NCBI RefSeq assembly: GCF_900048895.1
Contig: NZ_LT160639.1
Coordinates: 377,001 to 441,000 of the forward strand
Reading direction: 5' to 3'
Length of the DNA: 64,000 bases
Origin: Neglectibacter timonensis
Lineage (GTDB): Bacteria; Bacillota; Clostridia; Oscillospirales; Acutalibacteraceae
A model generated the notes under the pieces. The model saw nothing but the letters and a program-made list of their open reading frames with translations, was not told the origin of the DNA and made no database searches. A program made the position numbers and the translations under genes. Numbering within the stretch: the stretch's first letter is position 1; every line of letters begins with the position of its first letter. Of this stretch, positions 16,076 to 35,306 are shown one piece after another.

Positions 16076-17122
16076 ATGACGACTAAGCAAAGTAATAACA
16101 AGATCCCGAAGATCCATAAATTCATCACAAACGAGCAGGGTGAGAACTACTGGTTCAACGGCTGTGGGCGTTATGTGATGAACGCTCTGGGTGAAAAGGA
16201 TTACGACTACGAGTTTTTTGCGGGACTGACAGGCGATGTATTCGCTCAAATTTTTTCATACAATATTTTCCGCGGAGATGGGGTAACCGATTACGTGCTC
16301 AGCGAAGGTCGGGCTGCTTTTGTGGAAGAGATCTTCAGTAAGTGCGGTTATGCTTCGGCCTTTGTGCAGGAGGAGCAGTTAAAAGCCGACAAGGAAAAGT
16401 ATTTGCAGCTGCTTCTCTCCTATATTGACAAGGGTATTCCTGTAATCAGTAATCTACGCATAATGGGCCATCCAAAATGGATTGTTTTCGTGGGCTATGA
16501 AGAAGACGGAAAAACGCTTTTATTTATGACAGACAATATGACCGAACCGGAACGTGTTTCCACGGAAGAGGTCTTTTGCGAAAATATCGATGATGAATGC
16601 GGAAGAAGCCGGGGCTTCGTTTTTGTAGGCGAGAAAAAAGAACAAAAGAATTTAAAGCAAATATACCGGGATGCGATCCTGAGTCTTCCGAACTTGCTGA
16701 TGAGCAAAACAAAAAATTATTGTTTCGGTGCGTCGGCATTTCGTGGGTGGGCAGACGAAATTGAAAGCGGCAGGTATGACCATATGAAACCGGAGGAATT
16801 TGACCCCTGGTTTATGTACCAAAATTATGTTTGCGTCCTAGCCACAAACAGCAGCTGCTGTTATGAATTTTTGGATCGAGCGGAAAAACTCAATCCCGAT
16901 TTCGGCTTTATCGGAGAGCTTTATCGTCTATACCACAAAATGCAGAATATGTGGAAAAAAGACGCCGACAGCTTAGAAGCCATCGGCGGTGGGTTTAACA
17001 TAACCTTAGAAGCCTTGCAGGATATTTCCCGGCGGAGTGCGATTGCAGCGAAAATCCGGGAGTTCGCCGCTTGCGCCGACGAAATTGTACAGACAATACA
17101 GGAAAGTTCGACTCAGTCATAA
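16076..17122 (+). CDS. Free-standing paralogue of the MerR fusion's C-terminal (BtrH/C39-like) domain
   Basis: A 348-residue soluble protein homologous along its whole length to residues 535-892 of the MerR fusion. Shared blocks are QSNN-IP-IHK, GENYWFNGC, FFAGLTGDV, LLSYIDKGIPV, VGYEEDGKTLLFMT, CFGA/P-AF--WA and EAIGGGFNITL. It resembles the BtrH N-terminal/peptidase C39-like papain fold with Cys30 in WFNGC. At the position just before the conserved W-I-V strand it has Lys rather than the usual His, with a His three residues earlier, so catalysis is uncertain. The start has GGAGGATAAACGGCC upstream. It may bind the same ligand or partner as the regulator. Confidence 0.75.
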   Translation: MTTKQSNNKIPKIHKFITNEQGENYWFNGCGRYVMNALGEKDYDYEFFAGLTGDVFAQIFSYNIFRGDGVTDYVLSEGRAAFVEEIFSKCGYASAFVQEEQLKADKEKYLQLLLSYIDKGIPVISNLRIMGHPKWIVFVGYEEDGKTLLFMTDNMTEPERVSTEEVFCENIDDECGRSRGFVFVGEKKEQKNLKQIYRDAILSLPNLLMSKTKNYCFGASAFRGWADEIESGRYDHMKPEEFDPWFMYQNYVCVLATNSSCCYEFLDRAEKLNPDFGFIGELYRLYHKMQNMWKKDADSLEAIGGGFNITLEALQDISRRSAIAAKIREFAACADEIVQTIQESSTQS

Positions 17123-17303
17123 AGCCGATAGAAGAAGGAAGAAAGCAACGTAAACGATTGGCCCCTGTTCAGGCGGGACAACCTTGTCGATTTATCGGAG
17201 GGGTTCCCAATACGACCGCATTATTAAGGGCACCGCCAAAGAAGCAAATGGCGGTACTTCCTGCTTATCGCACTTAAACTGAGTGATTGCCAAAAGCGGT
17301 TAA

Positions 17304-17335
17304 AGCGGGCTGCAAAACTTCTTTCGCGGCCCGCT
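17304..17335 (+). terminator. Terminator-like hairpin after the C39-like gene
   Basis: A stem of AGCGGGC (17304-17310) with GCCCGCT (17329-17335), with extra pairs inside, is followed by CTCCGTTTTCGCCTTTTG. It lies between convergent genes and could serve either. The preceding 17123-17303 also contains an ACCGCCA/TGGCGGT hairpin but no gene I can support. Confidence 0.55.
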
Positions 17336-17373
17336 CTCCGTTTTCGCCTTTTGCAGCCTTCTACGCTTTTTTT

Positions 17374-18432
17374 CTATCCCAGTAAATACTCCAGCTGGCA
17401 GTCGCAGGGTTCCAACTCCACATGGCGAGCATTGTATTCTTCCGCCTCCGCACATCCCATGCTGCGATAAAAGGCCTGGCTTTCCACAGAGGAATGGGCT
17501 GAAATATAAAGCTTTTCTGCACCCAATTCCACTGCGCTCTCCGCCGCCTTTAAAAACAGCAGCCTGCCCAGCCCTTCTCCTCTGCAGTCTGCCGATACAT
17601 GAATACAGGAAAGGTCTGCGTACCGGCATTTTCCCCCCAGCAAGTCAGCTTCCACTGAAGTAAAGCCTTTCAGCTTTCCATCTAGGAATACTCCCCAGAC
17701 AAAACCTCCGGTTTTCACCGTGCGCATGAGGCATTCTGTCAATTCCAGATATTCCGCCTCTCCCCAGCGCTCTGTAAAGGGAACATCCTTGATTATCCAG
17801 TTACCATCGATTTTCCGCCAACACCGTTCTACCGGCTGAAAGCGGTCGAAATAGGCAAAGAGCTGTGGTGCCAGTTCCTCCTCCTTCAACTGCCGCAGCT
17901 CTCTTTTCTGCAGCTTTTTGGAGAGGTAGAGCACCAGGTTATCATCGTTATTGCAAGACTCATACTGACCGAGAGGACCATCCTCGTACCACACACCGGA
18001 GCCATCGGGAACATAACCTCGTTTTACATAGAGACGCTGGGCGGATCCATAGCCGCTGTGCAGACCGACTCCCAGCACTACCTGTCCGCTCGTCCGCGCA
18101 GCCAGCTGTTCCGCCGTATCCAGGATCCTATTTCCGATGCCCCTTCGCTGGAATTTCCGCAGCACATTGAAATCTGTAATCTCGGGCCAGCCTTTCCCCA
18201 CAAAGGGACCTGCCTCGGCCCCGGGCAGCAACGTGGCATAGCCAGCCGCTTCTCCCTGCCACTGGGCAGCAACTACCTTCCGGCTTCCGGCTTTCTGTTC
18301 CTCCAGGTATTTCTGAAATTGGCACAGCGGTTTATTCCAGCCCTGTGCCGCAAATCCTTCTGCAAAGACGCCGCAGTCCTCTTCCTGCAAGGGACGGATG
18401 ATCAAATTTTTATCCTGATAATAAATTTCCAT
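17374..18432 (-). CDS. Tandem-GNAT acetyltransferase
   Basis: A 352-residue protein with two GNAT domains. The first (about residues 1-180) contains ITDFNVLRKFQRRGIGNRIL, an R-R-G-I-G acetyl-CoA loop, and YVKRGYVPDG. The second (about 190-352) contains LSCIHVSADCRGEGLGRLLF, R-G-E-G-L-G, and SQAFYRSMGCAEA. The start MEIYYQDKN at 18432 has GGGGAGAAAAG upstream. A frame extending to 18519 runs through the repeat array and is rejected. Such double-GNAT proteins can act on aminoglycosides, small amines or peptides; the substrate is unknown. It lies downstream of araD, separated by an 83-bp tandem repeat. Confidence 0.87.
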   Translation of the reverse strand: MEIYYQDKNLIIRPLQEEDCGVFAEGFAAQGWNKPLCQFQKYLEEQKAGSRKVVAAQWQGEAAGYATLLPGAEAGPFVGKGWPEITDFNVLRKFQRRGIGNRILDTAEQLAARTSGQVVLGVGLHSGYGSAQRLYVKRGYVPDGSGVWYEDGPLGQYESCNNDDNLVLYLSKKLQKRELRQLKEEELAPQLFAYFDRFQPVERCWRKIDGNWIIKDVPFTERWGEAEYLELTECLMRTVKTGGFVWGVFLDGKLKGFTSVEADLLGGKCRYADLSCIHVSADCRGEGLGRLLFLKAAESAVELGAEKLYISAHSSVESQAFYRSMGCAEAEEYNARHVELEPCDCQLEYLLG

Positions 18433-18443
18433 CTTTTCTCCCC

Positions 18444-18690
18444 GCACCTTTTTGAAAAAAGGTGCGCCAAAAACTTTTATTCCGGCTTCGGACTCCCTCT
18501 TACAGGCAGTCCACTCCACGTTGCCTACACCTTTTTGATAAAAAATGCGCCAAAAACTTTTATTCCGGCTTCGAGCTCCCTCTTACAGGCAGCCCGCTCC
18601 ACGTTGCCCGCACCTTTTTATAAAAAATGCTCCAAAACTATTTTTCTGCCTTCGGACCTGATACAACAGCCTTTCCACTCCGCAATGCCA
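18444..18690. repeat. Tandem 83-bp repeat, almost three copies, with hairpins
   Basis: Equivalent positions are 18446, 18529 and 18612, giving an exact 83-base period. The first copy is full, the second nearly identical, and the third diverges after about 50 bases. Each unit begins with a hairpin: GCACCTTTTT with AAAAAGGTGC in copy 1, weakened in copies 2 and 3. Then follow CCAAAAACTTTTATTCCGG and TCCCTCTTACAGGCAG. On the minus strand the unit resembles an element at about 45.75-45.84 kb (CTGCCT..., AAGCCGGA-TAAAA, hairpin), so it is probably an interspersed genomic repeat. Confidence 0.8.
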
Positions 18691-18756
18691 CAGTATTCAC
18701 CTGCTAGCAGGTTTTACTTCGTCTGCGCTTCTTTGGGCGGTGATTTGAATCTCAAA

Positions 18757-19449
18757 TCACCGCTGGCCATAATAGGCGTTGGCGCCGTGCTTCCGGAGAT
18801 AATGCTTGTCCAGAAGCTCCTGCTGCATGGCCGGCAAAGAGGGATCCAGCATCAGATTGTGCCAGGCCATAAAGCAGAGCTCTTCCAAAACCACAGCGTT
18901 ATGTACGGCATTGTGTGCGTCCGTTCCCCAGGTGAAAGGACCGTGGCTATGCACCAGCACAGCTGGGGTATCGTCCGGTTTTTTATCGGAAAAGGTTTCC
19001 ACAATCACCTTCCCCGTCTCCAGCTCATACTCTCCGGCGATCTCCTCCGGTGTCATTTTTCTGGTACAGGGAATCTCCCCATAGAAATAGTCGCCGTGGG
19101 TGGTGCCCAACGCGGGCACACCTCTGCCGGACTGGCTGAACACCGTAGCCCACCTGCTGTGAGTGTGCACCACGCCGCCGATATTCGGGAAGGAACGGTA
19201 CAGTTCACAGTGCGTGGCCGTGTCGGAGGAGGGATTCCATTTTCCCTCTGCCTTTTCGCCTGTCCTGATATCCACCAGCACCATATCCTCGGGAGTGAGC
19301 TTATCATACTCCACTCCGCTGGGTTTAATGGCCATGATGCCGCTCTCCCGGTCAATTCCGCTGACATTGCCCCAAGTAAACGTTACCAGTTTATGCTCCG
19401 GCAGAAGCATATTCGCACGATAAACTTCCTCTTTCAACTGTTCCAACAT
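18757..19449 (-). CDS. araD: L-ribulose-5-phosphate 4-epimerase
   Basis: A 230-residue class II aldolase-family enzyme that interconverts L-ribulose-5-phosphate and D-xylulose-5-phosphate, feeding arabinose or ascorbate sugars into the pentose phosphate pathway. The zinc histidines are visible in [14 protein letters not shown] and in [13 protein letters not shown]-terminal boxes [18 protein letters not shown] and [13 protein letters not shown] are characteristic of AraD/UlaF/SgbE. The stretch [16 protein letters not shown] is also diagnostic. The start follows GGAGGTAGCATATC. No araA or araB is nearby, so it may be expressed alone or serve several pentose routes. AraD, UlaF and SgbE cannot be told apart here, but the reaction is the same. 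Confidence 0.93.
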
Positions 19450-19548
19450 GATATGCTACCTCCACAAATTCGTTCTTTTTTCAGGAAACGAACCGAAAAA
19501 AATGTCTGCATGTGTATTCTAACACCTGCAGACATTCTGGTAAAGCCC

Positions 19549-20733
19549 TTATTTCTTCAGTTTTTTCATACGTTCCATGGCCTCTACGGTCTTCTGGGCG
19601 TCGCCGAACGCAGTCAGGCGGAAATAACCCTCGCCGTTTTTTCCGAATCCGGCTCCAGGCGTCCCCACAATCTCCGCCTCGTTCAGCAAATAGTCGAAAT
19701 ACTCCCAGGAGTCCATACCATCCGGGCACTTCATCCAGAGATAAGGAGAGTTGGCGCCGCCGGTAAACCAGATTCCCATCTCCTCCAACGCTTTTGCCAT
19801 CACCCTGGCATTGTTCTGGTAATAGGCGATAGTTTCCATCACCTGCCGGCGGCCCTGGGGACTGAATACCGCTTCCGCCGCCCGCTGGGTGATATAGCTG
19901 ACGCCGTTGAACTTGCAGCCCTGCCTGCGCTCCCAGAGCTTGGAAACCTGTACGCCCTCAAACTGCAGCTCCTTCCTGATAACCGTATAGCCGCAGCGCA
20001 TGCCGGTAAATCCTGCGGTTTTTGAAAAGGAACAAAACTCGATGGCGCAGCGCTCCGCTCCGGGAATCTCAAAGATGCTGTGAGGCAGGCCTTCCCCGGT
20101 GATAAAGCTCTCATAGGCCGCGTCAAACAGCAGAACCGCCCGGTTTTCCAGGGCATAATCCACCCAGGCCTGCAGCTGCTCTCTGTCATATACCGCACCT
20201 GTGGGATTGTTGGGAGAGCACAGGTAGATGATGTCAGCATGTACGTCTTTCTCCGGCAGGGGCAGAAAACCATTATCCTCGTTGGCGTCGAGATAGAGAA
20301 TCTCCCGACCGGAAATCAGGTTGGTGTCCACATATACGGGGTACACCGGGTCCGGTACCAACACTGTGTTATCCACGTCGAACAAATCCACAATGTTGCC
20401 CACATCGCTTTTTGCTCCGTCTCCTACGAATACCTCGGAGGCATCCAGATCCACACCGAAGCCCTTATAATATCCGGCAATGGCTTCCCGCAGGAAAGGA
20501 TAGCCGTCGCTGTCCGGAGAATAACCCCGAAAGGTCTCTTTGCAGGACATCTCGTCCGCAGCCCGGTGCATGGCTTCAATTACTGCCGGAGCCAAAGGCT
20601 GTGTTACATCGCCGATTCCCATTTTGATGATCTGATTCTGGGGATGCGCTTTCCCATACTCATCCACCTTTTGGGAGATGGTCACAAAGAGATAGCTCTG
20701 TTGTAAATTTTGAAAATTGCCGTTCAGTTTCAT
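19549..20733 (-). CDS. dapL: LL-diaminopimelate aminotransferase
   Basis: A 394-residue fold-type I PLP enzyme that converts tetrahydrodipicolinate directly to LL-diaminopimelate, the one-step lysine/peptidoglycan route. DapL-type landmarks are the N-terminal MKLNGNFQNLQQSYLFVTISQKV, MGIGDVTQPLAPAVIEAM, the FRGYSPDSDGYPFLREAIA box, CSPNNPTGAVYDREQL and the PLP lysine in FCSFSKTAGFTGMRCGY. Two adjacent ATG codons are possible (20736 or 20733); the second is chosen for better spacing from AAGGA. Its product is the substrate of DapF, encoded upstream both as a free gene and as a fusion to CarB, so this is a local DAP cluster. Confidence 0.95.
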   Translation of the reverse strand: MKLNGNFQNLQQSYLFVTISQKVDEYGKAHPQNQIIKMGIGDVTQPLAPAVIEAMHRAADEMSCKETFRGYSPDSDGYPFLREAIAGYYKGFGVDLDASEVFVGDGAKSDVGNIVDLFDVDNTVLVPDPVYPVYVDTNLISGREILYLDANEDNGFLPLPEKDVHADIIYLCSPNNPTGAVYDREQLQAWVDYALENRAVLLFDAAYESFITGEGLPHSIFEIPGAERCAIEFCSFSKTAGFTGMRCGYTVIRKELQFEGVQVSKLWERRQGCKFNGVSYITQRAAEAVFSPQGRRQVMETIAYYQNNARVMAKALEEMGIWFTGGANSPYLWMKCPDGMDSWEYFDYLLNEAEIVGTPGAGFGKNGEGYFRLTAFGDAQKTVEAMERMKKLKK

Positions 20734-20843
20734 CATGCTTTCCTTCTTTCTGTTAGCAGGCCGCCACCCTGTTTTTTGATTGGCTTTCACATATTATAAA
20801 CAGGCATTCTTCTGTCCGGAAACCTCTGCGGGAGCCTTTCTTT

Positions 20844-21008
20844 TCATAGGGACTCCATGGTACCGGGATCCACATTGATATAGGGATCGAGTTTCTGAGC
20901 TGCCACTTTCAGCCCTCGTTCTTTGAGCAGTCTTCCGAAAGACGCCGCGGTGATCCCCTTTCCGATCCCCGAAACAACTCCGCCTGTCACAAAAATGTAT
21001 TTTGTCAC
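20844..21008 (-). pseudogene. pyrG: Truncated CTP synthase (pyrG) N-terminal stump, 54 codons
   Basis: A 54-codon minus-strand frame starting GTG (21008) and ending TGA (20844) reads [14 protein letters not shown], then the P-loop [19 protein letters not shown] and [12 protein letters not shown]. This matches the first ~50 residues of CTP synthase, whose full length is about 530. After VDPGTM (normally followed by SPYQHGEVFV) it reads ESL and stops. The next 100 bases toward dapL do not resume the family in any frame I checked. The clean P-loop and sharp end suggest a recent rearrangement breakpoint that cut off the rest of pyrG. It lies between dapF and dapL. Confidence 0.85.
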
Positions 21009-21083
21009 ACCAGGTTTCTCTCTGCCTGCCTTGATAATTTACAAACCGCCCTTTTCTTCCAAATAAATTGGTCTATGATCCTG

Positions 21084-21932
21084 TCAGACTTCTACGCTTC
21101 CTTCAAATATTTCCCGCGCTTCCCCGGCCATCAGCACACGATCCTCTGTATAGTTGACCACCAAATCTCCGCCGCGCAGCCGCACAACGATATCCGCCCC
21201 CATTTTGCAGCTGCCGCAGAGCACTGCCGCCACGGCAGACGCACAGGCCCCTGTGCCGCAGGCCATTGTTTCTCCGCTGCCGCGCTCCCAAACCCGCATC
21301 TTCAGTGTATTCGGTCCCAATACCTGTACGAATTCCGTGTTGACGCGTTCCGGAAACAGCGGGTCATGCTCAAAGGCAGGCCCCAGGCTCTCCAGGTCCA
21401 GCCCATCTGGATCCTCTCCAAATACGATACAGTGCGGATTTCCCATGGAGACACAGGTGATATCATAGATCCCTCCGGCCACCTCCGTATTCCTACGGAC
21501 GATCACGTCTCCGGCTAAGTTTACGGGGATTTTCGCAGGCGCCAAAACCGCACTGCCCATATCCACGGTAACAGTATCTGCCAATCCTTCCACAGCATGC
21601 ACCCAGCAGGTTTTGATTCCGCTGAGGGTTTCGATGTGTATTTCCTCCTTGCGCACCATTTCCCGATCCCAGAGATACTTCGCGACACAGCGGATGGCAT
21701 TGCCGCACATCTTGCCCTCGCTGCCGTCAATGTTGAACATGCGCATCTTAGCATCTGCCAGTTCTGAAGGGCAGATCAGCACAATTCCGTCCCCTCCAAT
21801 CCCTTTATGCCTGTCGGAAAGCCGCACCGCCAGTTTTTCCGGATTCTCGATGGAATCCCCAACACAGTTGAAATAAATATAATCGTTTCCGCAGCCGTGC
21901 ATTTTTGTGAAACAGAGTTTATTCCCAGACAT
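21084..21932 (-). CDS. dapF: Diaminopimelate epimerase, free-standing copy
   Basis: A 282-residue enzyme that epimerises LL- to meso-diaminopimelate. Both catalytic cysteines are present: CGNAIRCVAKY in the N-terminal half and MACGTGACASAVAA in the C-terminal half. The substrate boxes KMHGCGNDYIYFNC, GGDGIVLICPS, SMGNPHCIVF, VNTEFVQV and WERGSGETMACG are also intact. The ATG at 21932 (MSGNKL) is preferred to the one 9 bases earlier because AAGAGGAG sits directly before the earlier one. It is one of two DapF coding regions here; the other is fused to CarB just upstream. A perfect hairpin in the leader may regulate it. Confidence 0.95.
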   Translation of the reverse strand: MSGNKLCFTKMHGCGNDYIYFNCVGDSIENPEKLAVRLSDRHKGIGGDGIVLICPSELADAKMRMFNIDGSEGKMCGNAIRCVAKYLWDREMVRKEEIHIETLSGIKTCWVHAVEGLADTVTVDMGSAVLAPAKIPVNLAGDVIVRRNTEVAGGIYDITCVSMGNPHCIVFGEDPDGLDLESLGPAFEHDPLFPERVNTEFVQVLGPNTLKMRVWERGSGETMACGTGACASAVAAVLCGSCKMGADIVVRLRGGDLVVNYTEDRVLMAGEAREIFEGSVEV

Positions 21933-21971
21933 ACTCAGCATCTCCTCTTCTCAATATCTGGCTTAAAATTC

Positions 21972-22003
21972 GCAAAGGACTTTCCTGTCGGAAAGTCCTT
22001 TGC
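21972..22003 (-). terminator. Perfect 14-bp hairpin between carB-dapF and dapF
   Basis: GCAAAGGACTTTCC (21972-21985) pairs fully with GGAAAGTCCTTTGC (21990-22003) around a 4-base loop. On the minus strand it is followed by GAATTTTAAG. It could terminate the carA-carB-dapF transcript or act as an attenuator for the free dapF. The about 170-base leader before it (22004-22181) has no gene and no riboswitch motif I recognise. Confidence 0.7.
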
Positions 22004-22181
22004 TATTCAGTAGGCGTCCGCTCTCTTCAAAAAGAGGTGGTCCAGGGACAGCCCAGAAGGTAACCGTCCAGACGGCAGAAAACCGCTGCAGGTCTTCCAA
22101 ACGCCGCAGTAAGGGAAGGAATGTACACTGCAGCAGAAACGCTTCCCCTCTTTTCGAATATGGTTTCAAAAAATCCTGCGC

Positions 22182-25100
22182 TTATACTTCGACCGCGCCG
22201 TCATAGACCTTTTCCGCCTTGCCTGTCATCAAAATGCGCTCATCGGTATAGTTGATCTTCAGCTCGCCGCCTTTTAAAATTACACGGATATCTTTTCCCT
22301 TTTCACAGAAGCCATTGAGGGTGGCAGCTACCACAGCGGCACAGGTGCCGGTGCCGCAGGCCATGGTCTCGCCGCTGCCCCGCTCCCAAATGCGGGCCTT
22401 CAGGGTATTCCCGTCGATGACCTCCACAAAGCCCACGTTTACCCGCTCTGGGAACATAGGATCGTGTTCGAACTTCGGGCCCAGGTCTTCCAGATCCAGC
22501 TTATCCACGGAGGGCACAAACACCGTACAGTGGGGGTTGCCCATAGAACAGCAGGTGATACGGTAGACATTGCCGTCAATGGAGACGGGCTTATCCACCA
22601 CCCTTTCGCCTTCCAGCAGCACCGGCACCTTCGCAGGGGACAACTCCGCCTTTCCCATGTCTACGGCCACCTTGGAAACCAAGCCGTTTTTGGTGATGAC
22701 GGTGCACTCTTTGACGCCGCTTCGGGTATCAACATGTAGGGTATACCGGCCCTCCCCTGTCTTTACGCCCCTGGCAATTCCATTATCGAACAGATATTTT
22801 GCCACACAGCGAATACCGTTGCCGCACATCATACCCTCGCTGCCGTCCAAATTGAACATGCGCATTTCCGCGTCCGCCTTCTCGGAGGGGCAGATGAGGA
22901 TGACGCCGTCCCCGCCCACGCCGTTGTGCCGGTCGGACAGGTAAATGGACAGGAATTCGGGAGAGGACACCTGATTGGCAGGATCAAAGCAGTTGATATA
23001 GATATAGTCGTTAGAGCAGGCCGACATTTTTGTGAAGGTGATGTTCTGCTTGCGCTCCTTGAGATTGTTGATATCCACAATTTCCGTATTTTCCGGCGTA
23101 TAACGGCTCATCAGGGAATCCGCCAAGGCGTTGGCCGTATCCAGCGCCGTCAGACAGGGGATCCCCAAAAGGCTTGCCTTACGGCGGATCTTCACACTGT
23201 CACGGGCCGGGTTGCGGCCCTTGGCAGAGGTGGAGATGACATAGTTCACCTTTTTGCTTTCCAGAAGGGTAATCGTATTCATGGCAGAGCTCTCGTGAAT
23301 CTTATCCACAATCTTCACAGAAAGACCCACTTTGGCAAGCACCATTGCGGTACCGGTAGTGGCGTACAGCTCAAATCCCATCTTCGAAAACTTTTTGGCA
23401 ATCTCGCCGATCTCCGGCTTGTCCTGGTCGCGTACGGTGATAAAGACCCCTCCGCCTCTGCGCATCTTATGCCCGGAGGCGATCAGGCCCTTATACAGTG
23501 CCTCTTCCAGATTGTTACCAATCCCCAACACTTCTCCGGTGGATTTCATTTCCGGTCCCAGATGGGTGTCCACGTCAGTCAGCTTCTCAAAGGAGAACAC
23601 AGGTACCTTTACCGCCACATAGGGGGAGGGCTTGTAGAGTCCCGTGCCGTAGCCCAAATCCTTTAATTGATAGCCTAAGCTGGTCTTTGTAGCCAAATCG
23701 CACATGGGCACGCCCGTCACCTTGCTGATATAGGGTACGGTACGGCTGGCCCTGGGGTTCACCTCAATGACGTAAATTTCCCCGTCCATGATGATATACT
23801 GCAGGTTGATGAGGCCGATGCCATGCAGCTCCCTGCACAGTGTCTCGGTGGTAGCTACAATTTTGGCGCTCATATCGTCGTCGATGTCGGAGGCCGGGTA
23901 CACGGCGATGCTGTCGCCGGAATGGATGCCCGTGCGCTCCACGTGTTCCATGATGCCGGGAATCAGGATGTTTTCCCCGTCGCAGATGGCGTCAACCTCG
24001 ATTTCCATGCCGGACAGGTATTTGTCGATGAGCACCGGATTATCCTGCTTATGGGTGAGGATGATGGCCATGTATTCCTCGATATCCTCGTCACAGTAAG
24101 CAATGATCATATTCTGTCCGCCCAGCACATAGGAAGGACGCATGAGAACGGGGTAGCCCAGTTCACGGGCTGCGGCAAGGGCTTCTTCCGTGGTCATGAT
24201 GGTATGGCCCTTAGGACGCTTGATGCCGGAACGTTCCAGCAGCGCGTCAAAACGCTCCCGGTCCTCGGCCATATCGATGGTGTCGGCGGAGGATCCCAGA
24301 ATCGGTATCTTATTCTCCGCCAGAGTCTTGGTCAGCTTGATGGCGGTCTGCCCGCCGAACGCCACCACCACGCCGATAGGCTTTTCGATGTCGATGATAT
24401 CCATCACGTCCTCGGGGGACAAGGGCTCAAAGTACAGCCGGTCTGCTGTGTCGAAGTCCGTGGAGACCGTTTCCGGGTTGTTATTGATGATGACGACCTC
24501 GTATCCCAGCTCCTGCAGAGAAAGCACGCAGTGAACGCTGGCATAGTCGAACTCGATGCCCTGGCCGATTCGAATGGGACCGGAGCCCAGCACCACTACG
24601 GTCTGCTTTTCCCGGTCATTCCCGATAAATTCCAGAGCCTCATCTTCACCGCCCGCTTCTTCCGTGTCATAGGTGGCATAAAAATACGGGGTATGGGCGG
24701 CAAACTCGCCAGCGCAAGTATCCACCATCTTAAAGGTGGGCTTGCGGACAAATTCCACTTTGCGGCCCGACAGCCTCTCAATGGTGGAATCCGGGTAGCC
24801 CAGCTGCTTGCCCTGGGTATAAAGCTCTTCCGTCAGCACGCCTTTTTCCAGCTCACGCTCGTAGGAAAGGAGATTCAGGAACTTGGACAGGAACCAGCAG
24901 TCGATCATGGTCTCCTCGTGCATCTTTTCCACGGTGACACCGCGCTTTAAAAGCTCGTACACCGCGAACAACCGTTCGTCTGTAGCGTGGACGGCAATGT
25001 GCCACAGGTTTTCATCCGTCTCCGCCGCAAACTTGGGCAGGTTCAGGGTATCGAGAGAAATCTCCGCACCGCGTACGGCTTTCATCAGAGCCATCTCAAA

Positions 25101-26264
25101 GGTGTCGGCCAGGCTCATCACCTCGCCGGTGGCTTTCATCTGGGTGCCCAAGTCCCGCTTGGCGTACACAAATTTATCAAAGGGCCATTTGGGGAATTTT
25201 ACCGCCACATAATCCAGCGCCGGCTCAAAGGCCGCGTAAGTCTCTCCGGTGACGGCGTTCCTAATCTCGTCCAGAGTGTAGCCGATGGCGATTTTCGCAG
25301 CCACCTTGGCGATGGGATAGCCCGTGGCTTTAGAGGCCAGGGCGGAGGAACGGGACACGCGGGGATTTACCTCGATGACTGCATACTCAAAGGAGGTGGG
25401 ATGCAGAGCAAACTGCACGTTGCATCCGCCTTCCACTCCCAACTCTCCCACGATTTCCAGAGCCGCTGTACGAAGCATCTGGAATTCCTTATCGGAAAGG
25501 GTGACTGTGGGAGCGATAACGATACTGTCTCCCGTATGCACGCCCACAGGATCCATATTTTCCATGGAGCACACGGTGATTGCGTTGCCTCTGCTGTCCC
25601 GGATGACCTCGAATTCAATCTCTTTCCAGCCTGAGATACATTTTTCCACCAAAATCTGGGTGATGGGGGAAAGTGCCAGCCCGTTAGCCGCGGTCTCCCG
25701 CAATTCCTCCAGATCGTATACAATACCGCCGCCGGTACCGCCCAGGGTAAAAGCAGGGCGGATAATGACCGGATAACCGATTTCAGCCGCGAAAGACTCC
25801 GCGTCCTCCAGTGTAGTTACCACTTTGGAGGGGATACAGGGCTGGTCGATCTTCTCCATGGTATCCTTAAAGATCTGCCGATCCTCCGCCTTGTCGATGG
25901 TTTCGGGAGAGGCTCCCAGCAGGCGCACACCCATCCTGTCCAAAAAGCCCTCCTTGGCAAGCTGCATGGACAGAGTCAAGCCAGTCTGGCCGCCGAAGCC
26001 GGAAAGGATGCTGTCCGGCCTTTCCTTCTCAATAATCCGCTTTACCGTGGTCAGAGTCAGGGGCTCTATATAGATCTTATCCGCCATGGCCTTGTCGGTC
26101 ATAATAGTGGCCGGGTTGGAATTGACCAGCACGATCTCAATTCCGTCGTCCCGCAGGGCGCGGCAGGCCTGGGTACCCGCATAGTCAAATTCCGCCGCCT
26201 GGCCGATGACAATTGGGCCGGAACCGATCACCAAAACCTTTTTGATATCCTTATTCAGTGGCAT
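22182..26264 (-). CDS. carB: Carbamoyl-phosphate synthase large subunit fused to diaminopimelate epimerase
   Basis: A 1360-residue bifunctional protein. Residues 1 to about 1070 are a full CarB: two ATP-grasp synthetase halves (starts VLVIGSGPIVIGQAAEFDYAG and VVVLGSGPIRIGQGIEFDYAS, with ATP-binding IRPAFTLGGTGGG and MRPSYVLGGQNM), then the allosteric MGS-like domain (ELYATTGTAMVLAKVG). Residues about 1075-1360 are a full DapF with both catalytic cysteines (CGNGIRCVAKY, ACGTGTCAA) and SMGNPHCTVF. The frame is continuous, with NNLKERKQNITFTKM at the junction. The first DapF motif reads KMSACSNDYIY rather than KMHGxGNDY, so H, G and G of the substrate loop are changed while N and D remain. The start follows AGGAGG. 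It may couple carbamoyl phosphate supply to DAP synthesis, or be a tethering accident. Confidence 0.93.
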   Translation of the reverse strand: MPLNKDIKKVLVIGSGPIVIGQAAEFDYAGTQACRALRDDGIEIVLVNSNPATIMTDKAMADKIYIEPLTLTTVKRIIEKERPDSILSGFGGQTGLTLSMQLAKEGFLDRMGVRLLGASPETIDKAEDRQIFKDTMEKIDQPCIPSKVVTTLEDAESFAAEIGYPVIIRPAFTLGGTGGGIVYDLEELRETAANGLALSPITQILVEKCISGWKEIEFEVIRDSRGNAITVCSMENMDPVGVHTGDSIVIAPTVTLSDKEFQMLRTAALEIVGELGVEGGCNVQFALHPTSFEYAVIEVNPRVSRSSALASKATGYPIAKVAAKIAIGYTLDEIRNAVTGETYAAFEPALDYVAVKFPKWPFDKFVYAKRDLGTQMKATGEVMSLADTFEMALMKAVRGAEISLDTLNLPKFAAETDENLWHIAVHATDERLFAVYELLKRGVTVEKMHEETMIDCWFLSKFLNLLSYERELEKGVLTEELYTQGKQLGYPDSTIERLSGRKVEFVRKPTFKMVDTCAGEFAAHTPYFYATYDTEEAGGEDEALEFIGNDREKQTVVVLGSGPIRIGQGIEFDYASVHCVLSLQELGYEVVIINNNPETVSTDFDTADRLYFEPLSPEDVMDIIDIEKPIGVVVAFGGQTAIKLTKTLAENKIPILGSSADTIDMAEDRERFDALLERSGIKRPKGHTIMTTEEALAAARELGYPVLMRPSYVLGGQNMIIAYCDEDIEEYMAIILTHKQDNPVLIDKYLSGMEIEVDAICDGENILIPGIMEHVERTGIHSGDSIAVYPASDIDDDMSAKIVATTETLCRELHGIGLINLQYIIMDGEIYVIEVNPRASRTVPYISKVTGVPMCDLATKTSLGYQLKDLGYGTGLYKPSPYVAVKVPVFSFEKLTDVDTHLGPEMKSTGEVLGIGNNLEEALYKGLIASGHKMRRGGGVFITVRDQDKPEIGEIAKKFSKMGFELYATTGTAMVLAKVGLSVKIVDKIHESSAMNTITLLESKKVNYVISTSAKGRNPARDSVKIRRKASLLGIPCLTALDTANALADSLMSRYTPENTEIVDINNLKERKQNITFTKMSACSNDYIYINCFDPANQVSSPEFLSIYLSDRHNGVGGDGVILICPSEKADAEMRMFNLDGSEGMMCGNGIRCVAKYLFDNGIARGVKTGEGRYTLHVDTRSGVKECTVITKNGLVSKVAVDMGKAELSPAKVPVLLEGERVVDKPVSIDGNVYRITCCSMGNPHCTVFVPSVDKLDLEDLGPKFEHDPMFPERVNVGFVEVIDGNTLKARIWERGSGETMACGTGTCAAVVAATLNGFCEKGKDIRVILKGGELKINYTDERILMTGKAEKVYDGAVEV

Positions 26265-26283
26265 AGTTTTTCCTCCTATTCAA

Positions 26284-27354
26284 TCAGCCCATCATGGCGA
26301 AAAATTCATCAAACAGCGAACCGGTATCCAGCGGGCCTCCACAGGCCTCCGGATGGAACTGCACAGAGAACGCCGGGCAGCAGAAATACCGCATCCCCTC
26401 GCAGGTTCCGTCGTTCACGTTGACAAAAAGTTCCTCCCCCTTCTCCGGATCGATGCTCTCCGACACCACCGCATAGCCGTGGTTCTGGCTGGAGATGAAC
26501 ACCCGCCCGTTCAACCTGTTCTTCACAGGCTGGTTCGCGCCGCGGTGGCCGTATTTCAGCTTTTCCGTCCTGCCGCCGTGGGCCAGAGCCAGAAGCTGAT
26601 GTCCCAGGCAGATGCCGAACAGGGGAATATTCAGCTTGCATATTTCCTTCAGGTTCTCTATGATCTCCACATTTTCCGCCGGATCTCCGGGACCGTTGGA
26701 GAGCACTATGCCGTCCACGTCCAGAGTACCGATCTTCTCCGCTGTGGCGTTGCAGGGACAAACCGTGACCTCCGCACCCCTACTCACCAGTTCCCGCAGG
26801 ATATTTTCCTTCTGGCCGAAATCCAGCAGTGCGATTCGCTTTGTGACCGGCCCCTCCGGCCTTACCGTGTACTGCTCCTTCGTAGAGGAGGCCTTCACCG
26901 CGCCCTCTATCCGATAGCCCTTCAGCGCCTGGAAGTCAACCCCCGCGGGGTCGTCCGTAATGATACCGTTCATTACACCCGCTTCCCGAATTGTTTTTGT
27001 CAGCGTGCGGGTGTCGATTTCCGCCAGGCCGATCACGCCTCTTTCTTTAAAAAAGGTGTCAAGGCTGCCTTCAGAACGGAAGTTAGAAGGAGCTTGGCAC
27101 CAATGTTTCACAATATATGCGCTGGGACCGATGACGTCGCTTTCAAAGTCAGCGGGGATGACGCCGTAATTGCCGATAAGAGGGAACGTCTGTACAACGA
27201 TCTGTCCATAATAGCTGCGGTCGGTCAATGTCTCGAGATACCCCGTCATGCCGGTGGTGAACACCACCTCGGCGGTCATCTCCCCTTCGGCGCCGAAACG
27301 CTCGCCCCGAAATGTTTTTCCGTTCTCTAAAACCAGATACGCAGTTTTTCCCAT
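26284..27354 (-). CDS. carA: Carbamoyl-phosphate synthase small (glutaminase) subunit
   Basis: A 356-residue class I glutamine amidotransferase that releases ammonia from glutamine for CarB. The N-terminal CarA domain (TAYLVLENGKTFRGERFG, TGMTGYLETLTDRSYYGQIVV) precedes the amidotransferase domain with the catalytic cysteine in FGICLGHQLLALA and the His-Glu pair in SVQFHPEACGGPLDTG. The ISSQNHGYAV box is also typical. The stop is 19 bases before carB-dapF, which has its own ribosome site, so they form one operon. A promoter lies about 170 bases upstream, leaving a leader that ends in a stable hairpin just before the ribosome site. Confidence 0.95.
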   Translation of the reverse strand: MGKTAYLVLENGKTFRGERFGAEGEMTAEVVFTTGMTGYLETLTDRSYYGQIVVQTFPLIGNYGVIPADFESDVIGPSAYIVKHWCQAPSNFRSEGSLDTFFKERGVIGLAEIDTRTLTKTIREAGVMNGIITDDPAGVDFQALKGYRIEGAVKASSTKEQYTVRPEGPVTKRIALLDFGQKENILRELVSRGAEVTVCPCNATAEKIGTLDVDGIVLSNGPGDPAENVEIIENLKEICKLNIPLFGICLGHQLLALAHGGRTEKLKYGHRGANQPVKNRLNGRVFISSQNHGYAVVSESIDPEKGEELFVNVNDGTCEGMRYFCCPAFSVQFHPEACGGPLDTGSLFDEFFAMMG

Positions 27355-27370
27355 ACATTCCGTCCTTTCC

Positions 27371-27391
27371 CGCGCCTTTTCAAAAAGCGCG
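27371..27391 (-). promoter_or_regulatory. Hairpin in the carA leader next to the ribosome site
   Basis: On the minus strand, CGCGCTTTTT pairs with AAAAGGCGCG around a single-base loop, with one U-G pair, right before the carA ribosome site. It resembles the hairpins of the repeat at 18.44 kb. It could block translation or be a repeat remnant. No PyrR-binding consensus was recognised in the leader. Confidence 0.45.
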
Positions 27392-27519
27392 CCGTCGTGT
27401 TAATCCGTAAAGAGGCCGGAGACATCTGCAAATTCCTTTTCAGCGCCCCGTCCTGGTCGTCCCATCCGCCAGTTAAGCCTGGAGACAGTCAGCCGTTCAT
27501 TTCTGTTTATCAATACTAT

Positions 27520-27548
27520 ATCATACAAGAAACCTTTCAAACAAGCAA
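27520..27548 (-). promoter_or_regulatory. Promoter of carA-carB-dapF
   Basis: On the minus strand, TTGCTT (27548-27543), a 17-base spacer and TATGAT (27525-27520). It leaves a leader of about 160 bases. Confidence 0.55.
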
Positions 27549-27668
27549 GAAAAATTTTCGTTTCTCCTGTTTCTACAAATTTTATCACACGACGAAAAAA
27601 ATTCTTGTAGGCCCTCCTGAAAGCATTTTGAGACGTTGAAAAAAAGAATAGAATCCATGAAAAACCAT

Positions 27669-27697
27669 TTGACAAAGCCCGCGCTGTGGTCTAAAAT
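27669..27697 (+). promoter_or_regulatory. Promoter of glutamine synthetase III gene
   Basis: An exact TTGACA (27669-27674), a 17-base spacer and TAAAAT (27692-27697). Transcription should start near 27704, just before two leader hairpins. Confidence 0.8.
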
Positions 27698-27710
27698 ATT
27701 TGCATCACAG

Positions 27711-27782
27711 CAAGGCGCTGATGGGTAGCTCCCTCAGCGCCTTGCCCGATTTTGGAAGCGTCCCGTACACCCCGGTGACGGG
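27711..27782 (+). promoter_or_regulatory. Two hairpins in the glutamine synthetase leader
   Basis: Hairpin 1 pairs CAAGGCGCTGA (27711-27721) perfectly with TCAGCGCCTTG (27734-27744), and inside it GGG pairs with CCC. CCCGATTTT follows, so it can act as a weak terminator. Hairpin 2 pairs CCCGT (27762-27766) with ACGGG (27778-27782). No glnA-type glutamine riboswitch consensus is seen. A regulated leader is possible. Confidence 0.5.
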
Positions 27783-27811
27783 CAAACGAACAAGGAAAGA
27801 GTGGTTTGGTT

Positions 27812-29926
<2,115 letters not shown>

Positions 29927-30013
29927 CTGTGAAATCCCATAAGGATCCACAGTCATGCGGAAGATTCCTTGCGCGATTCTGCACGGGAATAAAAACTTTG
30001 TCCAACTGTAACG

Positions 30014-30055
30014 AAAGCGCGGTTTTAGGGCTTGAAACCCTGAAACCGCGCTTTT
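30014..30055. terminator. Terminator after glutamine synthetase III
   Basis: A stem of AAAGCGCGGTTT (30014-30025) with AAACCGCGCTTT (30043-30054), continued by AGGG/CCCT inside. T-runs on both sides allow it to serve the convergent M56 peptidase gene too. Confidence 0.88.
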
Positions 30056-30093
30056 TCCGGTGTGTTTTTTCATCCTTTATGCCGGCGATTCCT

Positions 30094-32205
30094 TTACAGC
30101 AATCCGTTTTTCCGTTCATAGTCTTCCAACAAGCCCGAAGCAGACGTGCCGGTGTTTACACACCGCCAGGTATCCCCCAGTCTCTGCATCAAATATTGAA
30201 GAGAATAGGTATAATACCCTTCCTCCCCGCTCTCCGCCGGTTTAAAATTTCCGGCCTGGGGATAGCGTTCCGCGTCCGCAGGCTTTACGGCATACCGGGC
30301 GGTAAAGGCAAATATGGAATCGTCCCCGTCCCTGGTGCCGGTCACCTCGCACCGGATAACCTGGAAGTCCTCCGCTTCATACCGGCTTCCAGGAATCCGG
30401 TGTAAAGCCAGTTTCTTTTCCTGCTCCGTATAGCTTTGCGCAACTTCCTCAAAACCTGTGACAGATGCCGGAACCGTAATCTCCTGAGCCGCTTCGTTAA
30501 AGGAGATCTCCTCCCACATCAGTTCTGCAATGGAGTCCGGATACTGCCAGAACCGTCTTCTGGCCGAGTACCAGCTCCGCTGCCCGTTCTCCGAATAAAG
30601 CGCATATCTGCTCCCCCGGTAAAAGGTGAAGGAACGGGATGCGTCGCCTGAAGAGAGCAGCAAAAGCTCCTTGGAATCAGGCTCCGGGTCTTCCTGACAC
30701 CGGTACCAGCGATACCCAGCCAATAGGTTTCCATACCTGCCTGAATAAAATTGGTCTGCCAGTTCAAAAGTATGGCTCTCTCCCTGCTCCGGCTTCCACT
30801 CCAGACGCAGCAAATCATTTTTTGCATAGAGAGCCCACATCAATTCCTGAACCTCCTGCTCCGTCAGAGAAGCCTCTTCCAGGACATGAGGATCTGGATT
30901 CACCAGCGTGACGCCGGTCACTTCAGAGCCGGTTTCCCCCGAAAACTCCAACCGGACCAAATCCCCCACATTCAGCCTCGAAAAACTCACCCTATCCCCC
31001 TGGCCTGTTGTGACATCCAGACCGGAAAGCTCTACCGTACCGCGGTCCTCGGCTTCTTCCAAATGTTCTCCCGCTCCGCAATACGTAAACGACGTCCCCA
31101 TCAGGCTTCTGATTTGTACGGTTTCCGAGCGGGATCCCTCTCCCGGGGAAAACGCCGAAGCGGCCGCTTCCTGTCGGGAAACCGTCTCCGCAGGATGAGA
31201 TACCGCTCCTTCCGGCCCTGAAGAGGCTGAGCGCTCCGCTGTCGCAGCGCCTGTAAAGGTACAGCCAGACACCAGCAATGATGCCAGCAGTACAGCGGCA
31301 GCCGGCAGCACAAGCCGTTTGGGACGCTTTGCCAGACGCTGGATGCGTGCCCGGATCGCCTTTTTTCCAGAAACCATTGTGGTGGCCGTACTGAGCACAA
31401 TGCCGGGAAAGTTCCGGCAGCTCACCATCTCCACCAGCGTGTGCCCGTAGGCCAGACGCTCTTTCTCTCCCAGACGCCTGACTGTCCTCTCGTCACAGGC
31501 CAGCTCACAGTCGGTTTTCGAGCAGAAGGCGGCGGCCCATACCAAGGGATTAAACCAGTGAATGCTCAGGCAGACGCCTCGCAGAACAGCCCACAGCAGG
31601 TCTCCCTGCAGATAATGGGTGTATTCATGCGCCAGAATATGCCTCTGCCGGACAGGCGTCTCCATACTTTCCGGCGTCAGGTAGACGGCGGGCCTTAAAG
31701 CCCCTGCCAGGCAAGGCGAGAGAATTCCTTCAGACCGGTACACCGGCAGGGGATATCCGGGGCACTCCACCCGGCCTCTTTCCCTTCTCAGCTTCCGCCG
31801 AAAATGCAGGTTGGACCAGACAAAGCAAAGGCCCATAACGCCCATCCCCATCACCCACACTGAAAAAAACACGTCCTGAAGATTAACAGCAGGTTCTCCC
31901 GCCTGCGGGCTCTCAGAAGCCTTCCCGGCGGAAACCGCAGGCTGCACGGGAAGGTCAACAGGATTCCGGGACGTGTTCTCTATTCCCTGCGCCTGCGGGG
32001 GCGCAGAGTAGGCTTGAGAAGCCTTTTCCACTGCGTTCATCACGCTGACAGGACTTTGTACCAGGGAAAAGGGCAGCAACAGGCGCAGCGCCGCCAGAAT
32101 CCAAAGTGCATATTGGAGCCGGGCGCTTAACTTTCCCCGGAACACACGGCGCAGGACGAGCAGCGCCATAATCAAAACAGACGAGGTGACGATACACTCC
32201 AACAT
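30094..32205 (-). CDS. M56 family (BlaR1-like) membrane metallopeptidase sensor
   Basis: A 703-residue membrane zinc peptidase that probably senses an outside signal and then inactivates the neighbouring BlaI-type repressor. The N-terminal third has membrane segments (IVTSSVLIMALLVLRRVF, LQYALWILAALRLLLPF) and the peptidase motif HEYTH in RHILAHEYTHYLQGD, with the downstream zinc Glu in ELACDERTVRRLG. After another membrane segment (LVLPAAAVLLASLLVSGCTF) comes a region rich in Ser/Glu and then a large outside domain of about 350 residues. That domain is not the penicillin-binding fold of true BlaR1, so the signal is unknown. It is 29 bases downstream of the repressor gene. Confidence 0.88.
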   Translation of the reverse strand: MLECIVTSSVLIMALLVLRRVFRGKLSARLQYALWILAALRLLLPFSLVQSPVSVMNAVEKASQAYSAPPQAQGIENTSRNPVDLPVQPAVSAGKASESPQAGEPAVNLQDVFFSVWVMGMGVMGLCFVWSNLHFRRKLRRERGRVECPGYPLPVYRSEGILSPCLAGALRPAVYLTPESMETPVRQRHILAHEYTHYLQGDLLWAVLRGVCLSIHWFNPLVWAAAFCSKTDCELACDERTVRRLGEKERLAYGHTLVEMVSCRNFPGIVLSTATTMVSGKKAIRARIQRLAKRPKRLVLPAAAVLLASLLVSGCTFTGAATAERSASSGPEGAVSHPAETVSRQEAAASAFSPGEGSRSETVQIRSLMGTSFTYCGAGEHLEEAEDRGTVELSGLDVTTGQGDRVSFSRLNVGDLVRLEFSGETGSEVTGVTLVNPDPHVLEEASLTEQEVQELMWALYAKNDLLRLEWKPEQGESHTFELADQFYSGRYGNLLAGYRWYRCQEDPEPDSKELLLLSSGDASRSFTFYRGSRYALYSENGQRSWYSARRRFWQYPDSIAELMWEEISFNEAAQEITVPASVTGFEEVAQSYTEQEKKLALHRIPGSRYEAEDFQVIRCEVTGTRDGDDSIFAFTARYAVKPADAERYPQAGNFKPAESGEEGYYTYSLQYLMQRLGDTWRCVNTGTSASGLLEDYERKNGLL

Positions 32206-32234
32206 CCCTGAGACCTCCCTTCCCCGGAACCCCT

Positions 32235-32621
32235 TTAGCGGTCTGCCTTTCTCAGAATTTCATGCAGCTCCTCAATCTCTTCCTGGGACAAACGATCCTC
32301 CTCAAGCAAGGCGTTCAGCATCATCCCTACGCTGCCCCTGTAAACCCGTTGAAGAAAGCTGTGCGTTTCCCTGAGTGCCACTGCTTCCTGTTCTACCGCC
32401 GGAAAATACAGTCTGGCCCTGCCCCGCTCCTCATAATGGATCAGCCCCTTTTTCTGCATACGGTTCAACATGGTGGCCACTGTACTCTTGGCCCAGCCCT
32501 TTTCTTCCTTCAGCGCTTCCACCATCTGCATCAAAGTACGCGGCGCCTCCCAGAGTAGCGTCATCAGCTTCCATTCTTCTGCAGAAGCAGATGGCGAATT
32601 TTTTCTTTCCACCTGGATCAC
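32235..32621 (-). CDS. BlaI/MecI-type repressor
   Basis: A 128-residue winged-helix repressor of the BlaI/MecI/CopY family. It has an N-terminal SASAEEWKLMTLLWEAPRTLMQMVEAL, then GWAKSTVATMLNRMQKKGLIHYEERGRARLYFPAV (recognition helix and wing) and a C-terminal dimerisation region (LLEEDRLSQEEIEELHEIL). The start is a GTG with AAGGAAAG closely upstream. It is the first gene of a pair with the M56 peptidase, the usual proteolytic signalling module. A consensus promoter with an ACATATGT dyad at its -35 suggests autorepression. The regulated target beyond this pair is not evident. Confidence 0.93.
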   Translation of the reverse strand: MIQVERKNSPSASAEEWKLMTLLWEAPRTLMQMVEALKEEKGWAKSTVATMLNRMQKKGLIHYEERGRARLYFPAVEQEAVALRETHSFLQRVYRGSVGMMLNALLEEDRLSQEEIEELHEILRKADR

Positions 32622-32673
32622 CCTTTCCTTTCATTTTTACAGGCTCTGCCTGGTTCTGCCTTATCTTAATTTT

Positions 32674-32702
32674 ATTATAGCTCTTTGTTCTACATATGTC
32701 AA
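32674..32702 (-). promoter_or_regulatory. Promoter and likely BlaI operator
   Basis: On the minus strand, TTGACA (32702-32697), a 17-base spacer and TATAAT (32679-32674), both exact consensus. The -35 overlaps the dyad ACATATGT (32692-32699), part of TTGACATATGTAG, which resembles BlaI-family TACA/TGTA operators. Confidence 0.82.
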
Positions 32703-32885
32703 CAAATTTGTTGCCAGTCTGATGACTATTCCCGCAATGCAAAAAAGCAAAGGCTGCTTCCCCTGGCAGGAAACAGCCTCCGCTTTTTTTACTTTTCAAA
32801 CTGTACAGTACAACCTGTTTTGCCATACCGTTCCTGCGACAACCGCCTCCCCTATCCTGTCAGAAAAATGTCTATCAGCTGAACC

Positions 32886-33065
32886 TTACGGCGTCTTTGT
32901 CTTTTTTTCTATTAGCTTGTACTTTAGCAGCAGGTCCTCGACCGCCTCATCCAGGAGCCGGGATGCCGGAATTTTGGTCTTCTCCGACAGGCCTTTAAAA
33001 CATTGCCAAAGCTCCGGGTCAACTGTGGACGCAATTTGAATTCTATTTCGTTTGGATGTATTCAT
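32886..33065 (-). CDS. Ribbon-helix-helix DNA-binding protein
   Basis: A 59-residue protein with the ribbon-helix-helix pattern: a basic strand (NRIQIASTVDPELW), a helix (ECFKGLSEKT-like; here QCFKGLSEKTKIPASRLL) and a second helix (DEAVEDLLLKYKLIEKK). Such proteins bind operators as dimers and often act as antitoxins or mobile-element regulators. The ATG at 33065 is preferred because AAAGGAAG lies about 9 bases upstream. No toxin gene adjoins it. It stands alone between the BlaI module and the kdp operon. Confidence 0.75.
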   Translation of the reverse strand: MNTSKRNRIQIASTVDPELWQCFKGLSEKTKIPASRLLDEAVEDLLLKYKLIEKKTKTP

Positions 33066-35287: not shown

Positions 35288-35306
35288 AAGGAGGCACTCC
35301 AGAATC

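Follow-up and report, generated by a model that had tools for sequence, protein, structure and literature searches.

Why should the large subunit of a carbamoyl-phosphate synthase (CPS) end in a diaminopimelate (DAP) epimerase, and is the attached domain still an epimerase? Both questions are raised by a gene of Neglectibacter timonensis lying in a stretch of 64,000 nucleotides (assembly GCF_900048895.1, contig NZ_LT160639.1, positions 377,001 to 441,000), which is called the window here and supplies the numbering of all coordinates. The gene occupies 22182-26264 of the minus strand as one open frame of 1360 codons. An initial annotation had described it as a fusion of CarB with DapF, and this is borne out by a complete CarB (residues 1-1054) and a complete DapF (residues 1075-1358) in a single frame of 1360 amino acids; the coordinates of the frame had been given correctly, and the strand, which had been left unstated, is minus (frame 1 of the plus strand contains stops). 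The CarB half is matched by the NCBIfam models NF003671 (residues 1-1054, 1460 bits) and TIGR01369 (residues 4-1049, 1428 bits against a cut-off of 1027), the DapF half by TIGR00652 (residues 1075-1358, 267 bits against a cut-off of 115). CarB-DapF is an established architecture, the gene being present in many public genomes. The explanation that we consider reasonably probable, if far from certain, starts from an ancestral enzyme with both activities, CPS and epimerase. Where another source of meso-DAP exists, its DapF domain would tend to lose epimerisation and yet be retained, probably for ligand binding or for the assembly of CPS.

The spread of the fusion was followed by one scan of GTDB contigs, in which 475 stretches matched, 453 were confirmed and the best 80 were kept (L035-L114). 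CarB and DapF share one open frame in all 80 kept loci, some of which are cut by contig ends. Among them are Neglectibacter, Scatolibacter (Scatolibacter rhodanostii), Merdimmobilis (Merdimmobilis hominis), Lachnospiraceae (Herbinix hemicellulosilytica), Clostridium sp. N3C and termite-gut metagenome-assembled genomes (MAGs) labelled Treponema and Chitinispirillia. Within the genus, 25 of the 28 other members have a frame of at least 800 residues running through DapF; the frame through DapF is shorter in G003 and G023, and G014 (63% complete) has a stand-alone copy only. At least two DapF matches are found in 26 of these 28, the exceptions being G014 and G024 (63% and 60% complete). A family sample of 110 genomes, 96 of them with DapF, contains 42 listed frames of more than 1200 residues, the window genome included, and at least five other families of the class, outside the order, have fused frames of 1316-1353 residues among the matches listed. 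Unfused CarB accompanies the fusion in 13 of 32 genomes picked for carrying it and is missing from the other 19. Where no fused frame is known (31 genomes compared), unfused CarB of about 1050-1115 residues is the only form in 30, and G056 gave no match to CarB. The domain-architecture search that the initial annotation had proposed for Oscillospirales shows the fusion to be common in that order and to reach other clostridial families. A fusion peculiar to this genome was rejected, as CarB mostly takes this form in the genus and many relatives carry it too. No paper on a CarB-DapF enzyme was found in the open-access literature, which agrees with the earlier remark that none was known to be described, and which is weak evidence of absence since most subscription journals lay outside the search. 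As a separate observation, seven of the termite MAGs labelled Treponema (L078, L088, L089, L090, L092, L096 and L112) are placed among clostridial termite sequences in the DapF tree; horizontal transfer or misbinning may have brought the fused copies under that label.

The same loci bear on the most trivial explanation, an assembly artefact or the read-through of two separate genes. A missed stop or a frameshift at the junction near 23.05 kb had been named as the observation that would undo the fusion, and neither is seen. The linker between the halves (23043..23102, minus strand, residues 1055-1074) is the gap between the NCBIfam matches and contains, near residues 1055-1064, the least confident part of the structural model. 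The GC content of third codon positions lies at 0.68-0.72 across six compared parts of the fused gene, and codons 1036-1090 around the junction include four in-frame ATG, GTG or TTG codons with no obvious ribosome-binding site by eye. In window 17000-36000 no RNA family of Rfam, riboswitches included, was matched at the gathering threshold. Nothing was found in favour of an artefact, and it has to contend with the long frame through DapF in the 25 genus members as well as with the single frame in all 80 kept loci; because both domains share one frame in every one of these, an assembly error is not a credible cause. With the open frame and the junction scan added, an artefact or a stop at the junction was rejected at sequence level, and we regard this explanation as next to negligible.

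The state of the active site is best described from the window copy. Its DapF domain (22182..23042 with the stop codon, minus strand, residues 1075-1360) is recognised by TIGR00652 and by AlphaFold and Foldseek. A model of residues 935-1360, built from 48 aligned fused sequences including that of the window, has a mean pLDDT of 90.4 and a pTM of 0.76; its best Foldseek match is the DapF of B. anthracis (2otn_A, TM by target 0.83), and its best structural matches are DapFs; the 50 matches listed include none to the MGS part by itself. According to the accessible part of PMC3581254, the catalytic set of DapF consists of Cys73, His159, Glu208 and Cys217, to which the accessible parts of PMC8225329 and PMC3581254 add, around the reactive centre, Gly74, Asn75, Gly218, Ser219 and Asn11 and, as contacts of the distal carboxylate, Asn64, Asn157, Asn190 and Arg209. 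All four catalytic residues are kept in the window copy, as is every pocket residue checked. Both catalytic cysteines are present as had been claimed (MMCGNGIRC, MACGTGT): the equivalent of Cys73, which is lost in many relatives, is Cys1147 (codon at 22824..22826, minus strand), and that of Cys217, also kept, is Cys1303 (22356..22358, minus strand). The change that had been noted in the first motif is real. The domain reads KMSACSNDY against KMHGCGNDY in the adjoining stand-alone DapF, with H to S, G to A and G to S, so that the altered loop SACS (23013..23024, minus strand, residues 1081-1084) corresponds to H7 G8 x9 G10 in DapF numbering. The Gly-x-Gly-Asn-Asp loop, near invariant among the compared stand-alone DapFs, is here ACSND; Asn11 and Asp12 are kept, G8 and G10 are changed and H7 has become Ser. 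With small variations, SACS is found in 26 of 26 fused domains compared in the genus, the window included.

It had been suggested that the altered motif might go along with another substrate. DapF-family enzymes with other substrates do exist (7vdy; PddB, in the accessible part of PMC8225329), and the fused domain could be imagined as a racemase for another amino acid, like PddB or O-ureidoserine racemase. In PddB, as far as the accessible part of that source goes, the residues at the distal carboxylate have been replaced (PMC8225329); in the window copy Asn64, Asn157, Asn190 and Arg209 are all kept. Since the checked DAP-contacting residues are all retained, a changed substrate is unlikely, and a change of the PddB kind is not supported. 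The loss of Cys73 in relatives should moreover abolish racemisation by two bases. A racemase for another amino acid is for these reasons a very improbable explanation, and reduced or lost epimerisation by the window domain is a plausible one.

How far the loss of catalysis extends can be read from two sets of domains: 112 fused domains, one per genome and the window included, and 102 stand-alone rows, which represent 97 distinct genes (five of them entered twice) from 95 genomes; these stand-alone copies are the ones whose DNA was fetched, a part of all stand-alone matches. The sets were drawn up without DapF pieces of fewer than 240 residues (among them the frame-broken copies of G461 and the partial fused copy of G008), without G014 and G023, which offer no fused domain fit for comparison, without G554, whose frame is partial, without G557 and G558, whose short frames are unclear and were not counted as fused, and without fused genomes outside the order. 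Both cysteines are kept in 55 of the 112 fused domains, Cys73 only is lost in 52 (to Ala in 32, Gly in 13, Ser in four and Phe in three), Cys217 only in two, and both are lost in three. Stand-alone DapFs keep Cys73 in 97 of 97 genes and Cys217 in 96 of 97. The named loci, which overlap with the compared genomes (several are the same contigs), have lost Cys73 in 26 and Cys217 in none of the 77 usable, non-identical domains among the 80. Three fused copies may be mentioned in their own right: L291 (G596, with a fused frame listed at 1638 residues) and L292 (G301) lack both cysteines and several pocket residues in a DapF part that is still in frame with CarB, and in L218 (G461) the DapF part is split over several frames.

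These counts bear on the simplest functional explanation, a plain bifunctional enzyme in which both halves are active and the fusion serves co-production for the supply of UDP-MurNAc-tripeptide and arginine, the loop change being a tolerated variant and the second dapF a matter of dosage. It is favoured by the window copy, with both cysteines, His159, Glu208 and the checked DAP-contacting residues in place, and by 14 of the 112 genomes, in which a fused domain with both cysteines is the sole DapF found and no meso-DAP dehydrogenase (Ddh) was found. The changed loop of all 26 genus domains speaks against it, as the loop is canonical in 23 of the 27 both-cysteine copies without a second dapF. 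Put the other way, of the both-cysteine fused copies, 26 of the 28 accompanied by a second dapF have a changed Gly-x-Gly loop, against four of the 27 that lack one; outside the genus the figures are six of eight and three of 26. A further difficulty is a sub-clade of the genus (G001, G002, G006, G010 and G027) in which Cys73 has become Gly besides the altered loop, against the 97 stand-alone genes that keep this cysteine without exception. The other DapF of the sub-clade has the canonical loop and Cys73; in G006 and G010 it belongs to a different lineage on the tree. We consider the plain bifunctional enzyme a possible but doubtful account.

Loss of the cysteine has not been followed by decay of the pocket. 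In the 52 rows that lack only Cys73, mean retention is 0.990 for the 11 other pocket and catalytic columns and 0.913 for 55 further conserved columns (p 0.04 by Mann-Whitney test, the columns not being independent), and all 11 are kept in 47 of the 52; this analysis was made without G301, G596 and G521. On the tree, the genus fused copies group with L046 in one starred clade (19 rows, short branches), and a second starred clade (18 rows, longer branches) unites the majority of the stand-alone copies of the genus with that of L046. The median ratio of nonsynonymous to synonymous substitution rates (dN/dS) over 36 pairs within the genus is 0.095 for CarB, 0.141 for fused DapF and 0.185 for stand-alone DapF, the last with synonymous sites near saturation in pairs with the window; in a wider set the genus medians are 0.12 for fused domains that have lost Cys73, 0.18 for those that keep it and 0.24 for stand-alone copies. 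That the fused domain is decaying into a pseudogene in the genus was rejected, as this domain is more conserved than the stand-alone copy.

A retained pocket also separates, in part, ligand binding from a relic that is kept as a folded tail for the stability of the CarB C-terminus or for CPS oligomerisation, with ligand binding irrelevant; this alternative lies partly inside the preferred explanation. It would fit seven MAGs labelled Treponema in which the domain is kept despite the loss of Cys73 and with no other source of meso-DAP found. E. coli DapF has a protein-binding role that is independent of catalysis, since the protein still binds and stimulates RppH with both cysteines replaced (PMC4227774, accessible part). 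The relic is harder to reconcile with pocket columns that are better retained than other conserved columns in the rows without Cys73, and CarB does without any such tail elsewhere, as in 30 of the 31 genomes without a known fused frame. We judge a mere relic to be unlikely. The likelihoods assigned to the alternatives overlap with that of the preferred explanation and need not add up to one.

If epimerisation is lost where it is dispensable, the damage should go with another source of meso-DAP, and the window genome provides two. A second, stand-alone dapF (21084..21941, minus strand; TIGR00652, 288 bits) with the canonical HGCGND loop and both cysteines starts 240 bases below the stop of the fused gene, and is followed by dapL, the gene for LL-diaminopimelate aminotransferase (19549..20790, minus strand; TIGR03542, 530 bits). 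The initial annotation had described the fused gene correctly and had overlooked this downstream order of fused gene, canonical dapF and dapL. By model matches the genome has two DapF genes, a single CarB, which is the fused one, and a Ddh (TIGR01921, 455 bits); with the second dapF and Ddh at hand, the fused copy is not the sole possible source of meso-DAP.

Across the fused set, with Ddh searched in 74 + 41 genomes and G024 left aside (Ddh not searched), a second DapF or Ddh is present beside 40 both-cysteine and 53 damaged fused domains, and neither is found beside 14 both-cysteine and four damaged ones (Fisher p 0.009, uncorrected for kinship). G524 was counted with Ddh on a match that a contig end truncates and that falls short of the cut-off; counted without, the numbers become 40 and 52 against 14 and 5 (Fisher p 0.02, likewise uncorrected). 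The initial annotation had taken CPS to be physically tied to the last DAP step. Such a tie suits the 14 genomes in which a both-cysteine fused domain is the sole DapF and no Ddh was found; it is doubtful for the window, with its adjoining canonical DapF and Ddh, and does not suit the 52 relatives in which only Cys73 is lost.

Several observations weigh against the preferred explanation. As many as 40 genomes with a second source of meso-DAP keep both cysteines, and the state of Cys73 amounts to only six changes on the best tree. In a test that allowed for kinship, the starred branches supplied only three independent pairs, too few for statistical power, and the result was not significant (median p 1 by sign test); with so few independent losses, the link to a second source rests on few events. 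No second source was found for the damaged fused domains of G469, G541, G041 and G603; two genus relatives of G541 (G039 and G552) have a second dapF. In seven of seven checked termite MAGs labelled Treponema, whose completeness is not given, the sole DapF is a fused domain without Cys73, and no Ddh lies above the cut-off. Treponemes use ornithine in their peptidoglycan and would have no need of meso-DAP, but the idea of a DAP sensor is weakened there by the same token. Outside the genus, the median dN/dS is 0.33 for domains that have lost Cys73, 0.26 for those that keep it and 0.33 for stand-alone copies, so that the former evolve no more slowly. Asn11, which is outside the 11 columns, has become Asp in 12 of the 52 rows without Cys73, and the pocket residues may be kept for reasons of fold. 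An action of DAP on CPS is hypothetical, and the window copy itself, with both cysteines and every ligand-contacting residue that was checked, may still be a working epimerase.

The half of the protein on which such an action would be exerted is a full-length CPS large subunit. The CarB part (23103..26264, minus strand, residues 1-1054) matches, besides NF003671 and TIGR01369, the Pfam domains CPSase_L_D1, D2 and D3 and MGS. It comprises the two ATP-grasp halves as well as an allosteric domain of the MGS-like type, the latter at 23148..23411 (minus strand, residues 952-1039; PF02142). At 22 positions that we take to line the ATP sites of E. coli CarB, 19 are identical, the differences being E208K, L210I and H754K. 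Of the positions that we assume to matter in the MGS domain of E. coli CarB, the equivalents of K954, T974, T977 and K993 are kept, and N1015 and T1017 are replaced by Ser. The equivalent of E892, presumably an ornithine contact in E. coli CarB, is Val in the window CarB and in six aligned fused relatives.

On this background the preferred explanation can be given as a sequence of steps. The gene encodes a single protein, the CPS large subunit with the DapF domain joined to its C-terminal MGS allosteric domain. Judging from its conservation, the fusion would first have been a bifunctional enzyme, and it may still be one in lineages without another source of meso-DAP. A second DapF or Ddh would then have made epimerisation dispensable. 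Cys73 disappeared on more than one occasion, or the HGxG loop was altered, and the sequences show that the fused domain with its ligand-contacting residues meanwhile stayed under purifying selection. In the genus, the canonical stand-alone dapF probably supplies the epimerase, and the fused domain would be kept for another role in CPS: most likely it binds DAP or a close analogue and relays this to the allosteric domain, or else it may help with the assembly of CPS. Regulation of CPS by DAP is put forward here as a proposal. It can be taken further, to a DapF captured on the allosteric end of CPS and repeatedly turned into a non-catalytic DAP sensor, through which CPS would read the supply of peptidoglycan and lysine precursors. 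This would have happened in Oscillospirales and related clostridia, often with the sensor encoded among glutamine-nitrogen genes, and the genus would be a step in progress, with the loop altered throughout, Cys73 lost in a sub-clade and a canonical dapF kept beside the fused gene or elsewhere. This extended version is tentative, and we think it rather less probable than not.

Gene order bears on both the origin and the setting of the fusion. The window has carA, for the small subunit (26284..27354, minus strand; NF009475, 441 bits), 19 bases upstream of the fused gene; among the 71 loci with sufficient sequence, 60 have carA no more than 200 bases upstream. Unfused regions were fetched for four genomes. 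In G449 the genes follow one another as carA, carB, dapF and dapL, about 1.2 kb separating carB from dapF; glnA, dapF, dapL and carB lie within 9 kb in G471, as do dapF and carB in G186, and the unfused CarB of G462, a genome that carries the fusion as well, is beside pyrF and carA. The neighbouring unfused genes of two of the four, G449 and G471, suggest that the fusion arose by the joining of adjacent genes, probably within a carA-carB-dapF-dapL cluster, the unfused order of which is seen in one relative.

In the flanks of the 80 named loci, where clusters of open reading frames (ORFs) were named from one representative each and carA by its place, carA occurs in 61, CTP synthase (PyrG) in 21, glutamine synthetase type I and PurF in 16 each, glutamine synthetase type III and an ANTAR-domain regulator in 15 each, DapL and GMP synthase (GuaA) in 14 each, a glutamate-synthase domain protein in nine and PurA in eight. 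By these counts the fused CPS is often part of a glutamine-nitrogen gene cluster. The scanned genes near the fused gene of the window are, carA excepted, not of this type. Two other ORFs of the minus strand were noted: one of 334 residues at 28091-29095, with no Pfam or NCBIfam match, is related to an ORF that occurs in 12 of the 80 fused loci, and one at 30094-32205 encodes a protein of 703 residues with a BlaR1-type M56 peptidase domain.

If the preferred explanation holds, these bacteria offer a natural experiment on a large scale, in which an enzyme becomes a domain for binding or regulation and the intact, the loop-altered and the cysteine-less stage can all be seen in extant relatives. 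The effectors of E. coli CPS are UMP, IMP and ornithine (PMC6245113, accessible part); DAP would possibly be a new input beside them, linking the supply of nucleotides, arginine and cell wall in gut bacteria. For annotation there is a warning, as a DapF match fused to CarB is often not safely a working epimerase.

Compared with known systems, the window domain shares with DapF (TIGR00652; 2otn, 1gqz) the full-length match, the predicted fold, both cysteines and the DAP-contacting residues; it differs in its fusion to CarB, in the change of HGxG to SACS and in having many relatives without Cys73. With E. coli CarB and TIGR01369 the protein has in common the full-length match, the ATP-grasp halves, the MGS domain and a carA directly upstream, and it departs from E. 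coli CarB by the additional C-terminal DapF domain and by Val in place of E892. Vertebrate CPS1 contains an inactive glutaminase-like domain and is in this respect another CPS that keeps an enzyme-derived domain after the loss of a catalytic cysteine, although it is a different domain, at the opposite end of the protein and in animals. Closest in kind is DapF-RppH of E. coli (6d13). There the association is non-covalent and the partner is a Nudix hydrolase, whereas here DapF is fused to CPS and a regulatory effect is only proposed; what the two would share is a feature of the E. coli pair, namely a DapF that acts on another enzyme without epimerase activity.

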